Shown here piece by piece: positions 4,065 to 52,181 of a DNA stretch of 64,000 bases. Position 1 is the stretch's first letter. Every line of letters begins with the position of its first letter. Source of the stretch: Gammaproteobacteria bacterium (GTDB lineage: Bacteria > Pseudomonadota > Gammaproteobacteria > DSM-19610); the NCBI GenBank assembly GCA_026197075.1, contig JAPHQV010000015.1, forward strand, positions 1 to 64,000. The letters run 5' to 3'. The translations under genes were made by a program, and so were the position numbers. The notes beneath the pieces are model-generated. The model ran no database searches and was not told where the DNA came from. It was given only the letters and a program-made list of their open reading frames with translations.

Positions 4065-4176
4065 GACTGCTCCAGGCCGGTTGCCGTTGTGCGATGCGAG
4101 GAGTCCGCTTTGTACCGAAGGCGTGCGGATTTGGCAACCGGGGAAAGGGCGCGGATTCTGGCCGCGGAGAGAGGCT

Positions 4177-4358
4177 TAGCCTGCATTATTCATGAACGCC
4201 CTACTGCGGCCGCCGATCCGCTCGCTGTGGCGGGGCGTACTCCTTCCGCCCGGCTTGACGTAGTGTCGGCTACGCCGGCGCCGAGCTTCGGTCCGTGCGC
4301 CCCGCCACAGCGGCGCCTCGGCGCCCTCGCGACGGGCGTCCATGAATAATGCAGGCTA
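4177..4358. repeat. Family-2 hairpin element, copy A (about 182 bp, MITE-like)
   Basis: The ends are inverted repeats of 25 bp with one mismatch (4177-4201 and 4334-4358), each containing the TTCATGAA-like palindrome block. An inner perfect 15-bp stem pairs 4223-4237 with 4298-4312 (CGCTGTGGCGGGGCG). A central 5-bp stem with a 6-base loop sits at 4259-4274. On the minus strand its order of blocks matches the plus strand of copy B (16921-17105), including a near-identical stretch TCGGCGGCCGCAGTAGGGCG before the terminal TTCATGAAT. No transposase is encoded. The TAG stop of the adjacent TorF-like gene is part of the element terminus. Confidence 0.85.
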
Positions 4359-5042
4359 GGGCAAGGGTCGGGACAGGATTCCCATGAAACGCAGATCCTC
4401 GGCCTCGGTGCCACGAGGATCGGTGCTGCCCATCAATTGCAGGTTGAGCCCGAAGCCATACAGATCCCGCTTCCGGGCCGAAAAGACGTAGGCAGGATGC
4501 GGCTCGTGGGCAAAGCCATAGTCATTCTCGCCATAGCCCAGTCGCGCCGAGAGGGAGAAATCGCTGCCGACATTCCCTGTGATGCCGAACTCGTAATAGG
4601 AACGCGGCAGACCACTGCCCTGGTAGTCGTTGGTGTACCAGACCCGCCCTTGCCAGACTTCGTAGGACAGGCCGAAATAATATTCCTGGTAGCGGGACAT
4701 GGCCGGCCCCAGCCCGTACTGGGCGATACCCGTATCCAAGCCGAGGCCGCTACCGAAACGATGGCGGATGCCCGTATAGCGTTCGGCATCGGCCTGGGCA
4801 CCATGGCGATCGCCCGACCAGACCTCGTGATAGAGGCCCGGCTGCGCCTCCGCGCCGAGGTCGGGCGCCACCATCCAGCCCTGCCCGGTGAGCAGGCCCG
4901 GGGTGCCGAGCGAGAGCGCGTTGCCGTCGACAGCCAGGCAGGGTGCCGAACCCAGCAGCAGCAGGCAAAAGCACCCCAACCGGCGTGCCGCTGCGGCCGC
5001 GCCATCGGTTATCCTTCTACCATCGAGCAGTGGTTGTTTCAT
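4356..5042 (-). CDS. TorF-like putative outer-membrane protein (Gcw_chp family)
   Basis: An N-terminal signal peptide (hydrophobic core RLGCFCLLLLGSAPCLA, about residues 22-38) precedes a beta-rich mature protein. Its alternating aromatic/hydrophobic strands, such as YFGLSYEVWQGRVWYTNDY and SLSARLGYGENDYGF, are typical of the small TIGR02001/TorF porin-like family. The ATG at 5042 (228 aa) is preferred over the longer frame starting at 5180, whose first 46 residues are Arg/Thr-rich and would bury the signal peptide. The TAG stop lies inside the outer arm of hairpin element A. It is therefore possible that the native C-terminus was slightly altered by the element. The substrate is unknown. Confidence 0.8.
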   Translation of the reverse strand: MKQPLLDGRRITDGAAAAARRLGCFCLLLLGSAPCLAVDGNALSLGTPGLLTGQGWMVAPDLGAEAQPGLYHEVWSGDRHGAQADAERYTGIRHRFGSGLGLDTGIAQYGLGPAMSRYQEYYFGLSYEVWQGRVWYTNDYQGSGLPRSYYEFGITGNVGSDFSLSARLGYGENDYGFAHEPHPAYVFSARKRDLYGFGLNLQLMGSTDPRGTEAEDLRFMGILSRPLP

Positions 5043-5300
5043 ATGCCACCGTTTGCGCTGCCAGGCGCCCCCAAGTACGGCGGATGAGTTGTCGGCGATT
5101 CGCTGCACGGTATGTGCCTCGCCGGAACCAGTATAGCCAGTGGCCCGGGGCTTTGCACGAGCCGTGGTCGAGGCCTTCAAACATTGCGCATCGGTGCCGA
5201 TGAATAGGGAATGGCGATCCGAGACCCGGATCGAGGTTGTTACACCAACATATTGAAATAATTAGATTAGCTTGCCATCTCCCGGTATGCTGGAGCCCTT

Positions 5301-9526: not shown

Positions 9527-10703
9527 TCCGGACCAGCATCTCGTTGTCCAATACCACCGGCCCAGCCGGAGATGTGCCCTCCGACCTGGAGCCGGGTGTC
9601 GGCCGCAGGGATGCGGCCGTCAAGCCTACAGGGATGTATTCACGGCGTCCCGGCGCCGGGTCGGAGGGCACATCTCCGGCGCCCGTGGCACCTGATCGGG
9701 TGGCAGAAAAATCCGCCGCATTCCGCCCCGCCGCAGCCATCTTTTCCAGGGCGACCTCCACTACCCGGAGGCTCGCCCCCGGCCGGTGGGCGTTCTCGCT
9801 CAGGTGCCGGCGCCAGGCACGGGCGCCGGGCTGCCCCTGGAACAGGCCCAGCATGTGGCGGGTCATGTGCTTGAGATGGGTGCCCTGGGCGAGCTGTCCC
9901 TCGATGTAGGGCAACATGGCCTGTGCGACGGCCAGTCGATCGTCCAGCGGACGTTCTTCTCCGTACAGGCGCCCATCCACCTCCGCCAGCAGCCAGGGAT
10001 CGTGATAGACCTCGCGGCCGAGCATGACCCCGTCCACCTGCAGCAGATGCGCCTCCGCCTCATCCAGGCTGCGGATACCGCCATTGAGAATGATCTCCAG
10101 GCCGGGGCGTTCGGCCTTGAGGCGATAGACCCAATCGTAGCGCAGGGGTGGGATGTCGCGGTTTTCCTTCGGACTCAGGCCCTGCAGCCAGGCCTTGCGG
10201 GCATGGATGATGAAGGTCCGGCAACCGGCGGCGGCCACGGTATCGATGAAGGCTGCGAAGGTGGCATAGTCTTCCTGCTCGTCGATCCCGATGCGGCACT
10301 TGACCGTGACCGGGATGTCCACCGCGGCGACCATGGCCGCCACCCCCTCCGCCACCCGCGCCGGTTCCGCCATCAGGCAGGCACCGAAACGGCCAGACTG
10401 CACCCGGTCGCTGGGGCAGCCCACGTTGAGGTTGACCTCCGCGTAACCCCGCTCCGCGCCGAAATGGGCGCATTGGGCCAGTTCCCCGGGCTCGCTGCCG
10501 CCCAGCTGCAGCGCCACGGGTTGTTCGGCGGGATCGAAACCCAGCAGGCGCTCCCGGTCACCATGGAGGATGGCGCCGGTGGTCACCATTTCCGTGTACA
10601 GCCAGCTGTTGCAACTGAGGAGGCGCAGGAAATAGCGACAGTGCCGGTCGGTCCAGTCGAGCATGGGCGCCACGCTGAAGCGTCTTGGCGGGTACTCAGT
10701 CAT
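9519..10703 (-). CDS. dusA: tRNA-dihydrouridine synthase A with a repeat-encoded C-terminal tail
   Basis: Flavin-dependent reductase making dihydrouridine in the tRNA D-loop. The (beta/alpha)8 barrel starts with SVAPMLDWTDRHCRYF; the catalytic cysteine is C96 (NVGCPSDRVQSG), and the FMN-binding segments KCRIGID and ILNGGI are present. The normal DusA body ends at about residue 341. Residues 342-379 are translated from hairpin element R2 (9566-9679), and 15 more residues follow to a TGA overlapping the next ATG. The total of 394 aa is therefore roughly 50 longer than expected, with a Pro/Ser/Arg-rich, probably disordered tail. The gene overlaps the oxygenase gene by 8 bases. Confidence 0.92.
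   Translation of the reverse strand: MTEYPPRRFSVAPMLDWTDRHCRYFLRLLSCNSWLYTEMVTTGAILHGDRERLLGFDPAEQPVALQLGGSEPGELAQCAHFGAERGYAEVNLNVGCPSDRVQSGRFGACLMAEPARVAEGVAAMVAAVDIPVTVKCRIGIDEQEDYATFAAFIDTVAAAGCRTFIIHARKAWLQGLSPKENRDIPPLRYDWVYRLKAERPGLEIILNGGIRSLDEAEAHLLQVDGVMLGREVYHDPWLLAEVDGRLYGEERPLDDRLAVAQAMLPYIEGQLAQGTHLKHMTRHMLGLFQGQPGARAWRRHLSENAHRPGASLRVVEVALEKMAAAGRNAADFSATRSGATGAGDVPSDPAPGRREYIPVGLTAASLRPTPGSRSEGTSPAGPVVLDNEMLVRNE
9566..9679 (+). repeat. Family-1 hairpin element, copy 2 (R2), inside the 3' end of dusA
   Basis: A perfect 21-bp outer inverted repeat (9566-9586 and 9659-9679) continues inwards with a few mismatches to about 9597 and 9650. The core at 9601-9646 carries GGCCGCAGGGATGCGGCC and TACAGGGATGTATTCACGGC, nearly identical to R1 although the arms share no evident similarity with those of R1 or R3. 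It is in frame with dusA and is translated. No transposase is encoded. Confidence 0.88.
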
Positions 10704-16920: not shown

Positions 16921-17105
16921 TAGTCTGGACGATTCATGAACTACCGTAGCGAGGGCGTCGAGATGCCTGAAAAGACAGCGTGGCGCGGACTGGAAGGCGC
17001 GCAGGCATACTTGACAGTATGTCGAGAACCTGGAGGGAGCACGCGCTGGCTTTTCAGGTATATCGGCGTCCGCAGTAGGTCGTTCATGAATCGTCCAGGC
17101 TCCTA
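16921..17105. repeat. Family-2 hairpin element, copy B (about 185 bp, MITE-like)
   Basis: The ends carry a perfect 17-bp inverted repeat (CTGGACGATTCATGAAC, 16925-16941 and 17082-17098). An inner stem pairs 16966-16980 with 17044-17058 (14 of 15), and a central hairpin CATAC-TTGACA-GTATG lies at 17006-17021. The layout and several single-stranded blocks match the minus strand of copy A, while all three stems differ from those of copy A and still pair. The right end, read on the minus strand as TAG-GAG-CCTG, supplies the stop codon region of the protease gene. Confidence 0.87.
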
Positions 17106-52031: not shown

Positions 52032-52181
52032 CGGTTTGGTGGTCACCCTGTGACGGGACCGTCGGCCGCATGGACGCGGCCGTCGAGCGTACAGGGACAA
52101 GGTGAGACCGCGTAGCGGTCGAGAATGTGCCCTGGGGTACCTATTCACAGCAAGTCCCGTCACAGGCTGACCGCCAAACCG
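52032..52181 (+). repeat. Family-1 hairpin element, copy 3 (R3), with an expanded core
   Basis: A 28-bp inverted repeat (52032-52059 and 52154-52181, 26 of 28 complementary) flanks the core GGCCGCATGGACGCGGCC, GTCGAGCGTACAGGGA, then TATTCACAGC. Compared with R1 and R2, about 45 extra bases lie between ACAGGGA and TATTCACAGC, containing a small hairpin ACCGC-GTA-GCGGT. The element lies 23 bp past the stop of the TIGR03088-type gene and upstream of the amidotransferase start, interrupting the otherwise compact XrtA operon. Confidence 0.87.

Follow-up and report, generated by a model that had tools for sequence, protein, structure and literature searches.

The window, the whole 64,000-nt stretch of DNA analysed here, carries two near-palindromes of 182 bp each with an identical block order, copy A on the minus strand at 4177-4358 and copy B on the plus strand at 16921-17102. 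In copy A, with all features on the minus strand, the outer arms are TIRs at 4334-4355 (left, CCTGCATTATTCATGGACGCCC, which matches the TIR of an IS1380-family IS at 18 of 22 positions) and 4180-4201 (right). Inside them lie a conserved left block (CCGTCGCGAGGGCGCCGAG, 4317-4335) and a conserved right block (ATCGGCGGCCGCAGTAGG, 4200-4217), an inner stem with its 5' arm at 4298-4316 and its 3' arm at 4218-4237, and the apical hairpin GGCGTAG-CCGACA-CTACGTC at 4257-4276. The left end is bordered by a CTAG target (4356-4359), whose TAG is the stop codon of a TorF-like porin gene (4356-5180), and the right end by CTAA (4176-4179), an imperfect duplicate of the target. The corresponding plus-strand features of copy B are the left and right TIRs or outer arms (16924-16945 and 17078-17099), the conserved left block CCGTAGCGAGGGCGTCGAG (16944-16962) and right block ATCGGCGTCCGCAGTAGG (17062-17079), the 5' arm ATGCCTGAAAAGACAGCGTG (16963-16982) and 3' arm CGCGCTGGCTTTTCAGGTAT (17042-17061) of the inner stem, and the apical hairpin GGCATAC-TTGACA-GTATGTC (17004-17023).

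A mechanical inverted-repeat search recovered outer arms of 25 nt in A and 24 nt in B, which are 96% and 92% complementary, respectively, as well as the inner stem of A. Folded as single-stranded DNA, copy A reached -78 kcal/mol (z -9.2) and copy B -59.9 kcal/mol (z -10.3), with none of 200 shuffles as low in either case. The left block CCGTAGCGAGGGCGTCGAG occurs within the window in A and B only (0.04 expected), and the right block CCGCAGTAGGNCGTTCATGAA three times genome-wide, once each in A and B and once in a further copy, C. These results bear out the preliminary description in placing A and B at these sites with a common block order, in stating that their stems differ yet pair within each copy, and in holding the block similarity to be above chance; its coordinates were right for A and for the start of B, which ends at 17102 and not at 17105. 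The blocks that it took to be unpaired are conserved but not fully unpaired, since a 6-bp stem CGYCGA/TCGGCG beneath the inner stem partly pairs them. Between the inner stems of A and B, 6 of 15 inner positions are identical, and their positional homology is uncertain when these two copies are taken alone; an ungapped alignment proved to be off by 1-2 bases and was replaced by a structural alignment. That A and B form one family follows from the many further copies described below. A second palindrome family was observed in the window at 422-527, 9565-9680 and 52032-52181, with a common core GGCCGCAGGGATGCGGCC..TCGAGCGTACAGGGATGTATTCACAGC, which extends further in the 52032 copy, and with flanking arms that are particular to each copy and pair internally; it had no Rfam match above gathering score.

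Copy C lies on contig 34 of the window's genome (G000), and a full-length fourth copy, D, was found in Thiogranum sp. MAG mag.26 (G009), which belongs to the same bacterial family. A covariance model built on the inner 141 nt of A-D, with most of the TIRs excluded, matched strongly, nearly always over its whole length, in 21 of the 368 gammaproteobacterial genomes sampled when at most 8 candidates per genome were scored, with E-values reaching 1e-28 outside the host's bacterial family. In a deeper search of 17 genomes the highest copy numbers were 77, 50, 40, 33 and 29; many of the genomes designated here by G numbers are fragmented and probably MAGs. In a second, phylum-wide sample none of 397 other genomes matched the model at 1e-4, which indicates a specific model and a patchy distribution of the family. 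The core of A is nearest to copies in G282 and G192 (85-87%) and that of B to the Thiogranum copy and C (92-95%), and two separate lineages of the family thus coexist in the window's genome.

Rfam 15 scans of the window and 14 other copies returned nothing above gathering score, and permissive Rfam scans yielded weak, chance-like matches only. No match was obtained by BLAST of copy B against plasmids and phages, by BLAST of an L104-type copy against plasmids, or in two pattern scans of viral contigs for the element, and the TIR strings had no relevant match in the literature. Right-block pattern matches in Bosea, Thauera and Chloroflexi were rejected, as their flanks were unlike the element and no TIR was present. 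Copies A and B are members of a large, previously uncatalogued family of ~180 bp elements in many gammaproteobacteria; the 182-nt element is multi-copy and dispersed and has no transposase gene of its own.

Structural alignment of A-D revealed compensated double changes in 14 of 44 pairs (mean of 3.9 in shuffles, none of 500 reaching 14), and 96% of the cells pair, compared with 25-46% when the register is slid by 1-3 columns. Even between C and D, at 92% identity, both partners of three inner-stem pairs have already changed. In an alignment of 98 copies, which was fitted to the covariance model and whose sampling favoured strong matches, 39 of the 44 pairs show double changes and 91% of the cells form standard pairs versus 69% after shuffling. 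Moreover, a model-free MAFFT alignment of 20 diverse copies recovered the lower stem and the apical hairpin, with 27 pairs of which 18 carry compensated changes, and folded at -21.0 kcal/mol on the plus strand versus -5.9 kcal/mol on the minus strand. Asymmetric loop blocks are retained in 81-85 of the 98 copies and symmetrised in none, and at 70-80% identity unpaired columns change more slowly than paired ones (0.157 versus 0.314). By its asymmetric loops, covarying stems and strand-specific wobble the core behaves separately from the TIRs.

Single-sequence folding identified the plus strand as the better folder in 97 of the 98 copies and in 22 of 22 sequence clusters, which do not represent 22 independent events, as conserved G-U positions are inherited by descent. 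G-U exceeded A-C by 540 to 97 cells in the 98 copies and by 127 to 18 with one representative per cluster, whereas strand-symmetric processes such as arm-to-arm conversion or selection on a cruciform predict equal numbers of both. For the 15 outermost pairs of the TIRs, these counts lie close together (roughly 17 versus 10). The combination of asymmetric loops, covariation and strand-specific wobble suggests that selection acts on a folded single strand in lineages still transposing, and the compensated stem changes together with the wobble tolerance of one strand point to RNA as its most likely form. It is from the strand-specific wobble pairs that we infer that the core acts as RNA; RNA and single-stranded DNA are not distinguishable by sequence alone as the form under selection. 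Among recent copies within clusters the wobble bias is much weaker (41 versus 22 events), for which reason individual copies may be non-functional; this weak recent bias fits neutral decay of single insertions combined with selection on spreading lineages.

Most copies are bounded by CTAG or a near variant. Among 82 copies with clear TIRs, CTAG flanks both ends exactly in 35, and the two flanking 4-mers are identical in 42; the target duplication is perfect in C, CTAG/CTAA in A and degraded in B (TTAG/CTCC). The 11 copies in G011 have median identities of 98% for the core and 100% for the TIR, with flanks at the chance level of 21%. In the same-genus genome G001, the gene orthologous to the porin gene at copy A ends with the identical CCTTGCCCTAG, containing a native CTAG, and is followed by no element, the alignment of this empty site covering the left junction only because the downstream side is not alignable. 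Just downstream of that porin gene, a different palindrome-like repeat was observed (ATTGCGAGCGAAGCGCGGCAATCTCC ... GGAGATTGCCGCG; L236, G001:C62). None of 33 copies viewed in their gene context clearly interrupts a gene, one lying in a spurious-looking predicted ORF, and in 6 of 33 copies examined, copy A among them, CTAG provides the TAG stop codon of a gene. An orientation bias relative to host genes was looked for and not found, the surveyed insertions being intergenic and randomly oriented to both the upstream gene (13 co, 14 anti) and the downstream gene (15 co, 17 anti). Two mini copies of 74-77 nt in the Thiogranum MAG mag.26 (L012/L021 and L014/L025) retain the TIRs and the right block and have neither the inner stem nor the apical hairpin. 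They may be post-insertion deletion products, or the core may be dispensable for movement; their missing inner stem means that transposition may not require the core.

A search with NF033539 identified IS1380-family transposases in G282, G287, G303, G192 and G177. The complete IS L125 ends in CTAGCCCGGACTATTCATGAAC, which matches the TIR of copy D at 21 of 22 positions and those of A and B at 18 of 22 each, the complete ISs L119 and L120 end in CTAGCCCGCATTTCTCACC, and plasmid IS1380 elements of Endozoicomonas, Bradyrhizobium and Sphingobium have similar ends. The 45-nt TIR of L126 (G177:C84) contains the subterminal block TTCGTAGCGAGACGGTTCAA and is identical at 41 of 45 positions to that of MITE L116 of the same genome. 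Autonomous IS1380 partners share a genome with the MITEs in G177, G287 and G303. Based on this identity of the ends, an IS1380 transposase probably moves the MITE. At the threshold used, the NF033539 search detected no IS1380-family transposase in the window's genome, G001 or the Thiogranum genome G009, and several copy-rich genomes likewise had no recognisable one; the three copies in the window's genome are therefore probably stranded.

L126, which encodes a divergent 516-aa IS1380-like transposase, bears the left block of the MITE at both ends and is perhaps an IS that captured MITE ends. We rejected the MITE as a simple deletion derivative of L126 because the MITEs have a distinct right block, and the core model (R1) found no core in L126 or any other IS locus examined. 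A third TIR type, AAGCACTCCTTGTTCA, was observed at L109 (G264:C2:3166131-3166268) and suggests TIR exchange around one core. The explanation of block conservation by transposase binding alone is weakened, as the same core was found with different TIRs.

We assign a probability of about 0.78 to the reading that A and B are non-autonomous IS1380-type MITEs with a strand-specific folded core, which is most likely RNA. The conserved nucleic-acid structure that the preliminary description had proposed is strongly supported by the 98 copies from many genera, and the covariation it expected across further copies is present in them. Its alternative of a structured RNA or a mobile unit turned out to be a matter of both, as structure and mobility each hold and only the either/or falls away. 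The trans-acting transposase that it envisaged elsewhere has a probable counterpart in the IS1380-family ISs with near-identical TIRs in some family-bearing genomes. Mobility based on a hairpin or a Y1 nuclease is not supported, since the duplicated CTAG and the similarity of the TIRs to those of ISs in this DDE family point to an ordinary DDE-type MITE.

In the mechanism we propose, the DDE transposase of an IS1380-family IS, now gone from the window's genome, would have recognised the matching TIRs and put the ~180-bp unit into CTAG, duplicating this target; insertion into CTAG would sometimes hit a TAG stop codon, which would survive. The core of ~140 nt between the TIRs is maintained, on one strand only, as a rod in which a short stem leads to an internal loop (CGYNGCGAG facing CGCAGYAG), followed by the 20-bp inner stem, a purine-rich loop and the apical hairpin. 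Read-through from either neighbouring gene would transcribe the element, one orientation of the transcript would fold into the rod, and the core would be kept because lineages losing it cease to spread. Tentatively, and at somewhat less than even odds, the core may be a true, previously undescribed structured RNA that serves the element, for example by acting on transposition in trans or by protecting host transcripts, that passes between genera as its TIRs are swapped for ones matching different IS1380 transposases, and that is kept by selection on spreading lineages and not on single copies.

The same observations can be read as a plain palindromic IS1380 MITE with a functionless core, its arms matched by fork template switching or intrastrand conversion. 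This reading agrees with the clear MITE nature of the elements, with adjacent double changes from CA/TG to GC/GC between C and D that look templated, and with the many uncorrected mismatches of recent copies. However, arm conversion would erase the asymmetric internal loops, which are conserved and never symmetrised, and would generate G-U and A-C intermediates equally, whereas G-U dominates; the slower change of unpaired than of paired columns also speaks against this explanation, which we regard as unlikely. It is quite unlikely, too, that a MITE captured a non-coding RNA gene or cis-regulatory element of the host, which would now benefit the host at particular genes. Such an origin would agree with the deep, strand-specific conserved fold with its loop motifs and with the many copies that adjoin gene ends, but not with the random orientation to neighbouring genes or the lack of an Rfam match, and no shared host gene was noticed on informal inspection.

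Strand-specific folding is also compatible with selection on single-stranded DNA, in which G-T is more stable than A-C, and some loops contain GTAG-like motifs, as might be expected of a hairpin element of which one strand is read by a Y1-type (IS200/IS605 or RAYT-like) nuclease. Yet CTAG is duplicated on both sides, and Y1 insertions are not known to duplicate a target; the TIRs match ISs with DDE transposases, and the GTAG motif of the left loop (CGTNGCGAG) is not conserved, which makes a Y1-type element very improbable.

Bacterial MITEs are usually viewed as passive, ends-only derivatives. The non-autonomous IS1380-type family described here combines at least two TIR types with a single folded core that is strand-specific and deeply conserved across many genera of gammaproteobacteria, and offers a clean test case for whether a miniature transposon can depend on its own RNA. 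It also accounts for a repeat otherwise annotated as anonymous intergenic DNA.

IS1380 is absent from the main text of a review on prokaryotic MITEs published in 2024 (PMC10969869). The element resembles IS1380-family ISs (DDE_Tnp_1_4, NF033539) in TIR sequence and CTAG insertion site, but lacks a transposase gene, and its core is absent from the IS loci examined. The GTAG-tagged REP palindromes with RAYT transposases are likewise intergenic palindromic repeats, of 20-40 bp (PMC3733652), whereas the element is 182 bp long, has TIRs and a target duplication, and does not conserve a GTAG foot. CTAG flanks it on both sides and not on one, which separates it from IS200/IS605 (Y1) or PATE-type elements. 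The bcr repeats of the Bacillus cereus group, including bcr1, are 100-400 bp long, occur in tens per genome and behave as mobile elements (PMC6542083). Their mobility is tied to TTTAT and they are confined to that group, whereas our element has a CTAG target and gammaproteobacterial hosts, which sets it outside the bcr repeats, and we claim no sequence relation. ERIC (IRU), a 127-bp enterobacterial palindromic MITE, is likewise small, intergenic and palindromic, has TIRs and duplicates its target, and its foldable transcript changes mRNA stability in an orientation-dependent manner (PMC2229807, PMC10969869); it differs in TIRs, size and hosts, and has a 5'-TA-3' terminus where the element has CTAG. 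The Correia (NEMIS) elements of Neisseria are MITEs whose folded transcript is cleaved by RNase III (PMC2229807, PMC10969869); they differ in size and hosts, and the sections of these papers drawn on here do not describe a deep covarying core for them. ERIC and Correia are the closest precedents for the rod RNA proposed here.
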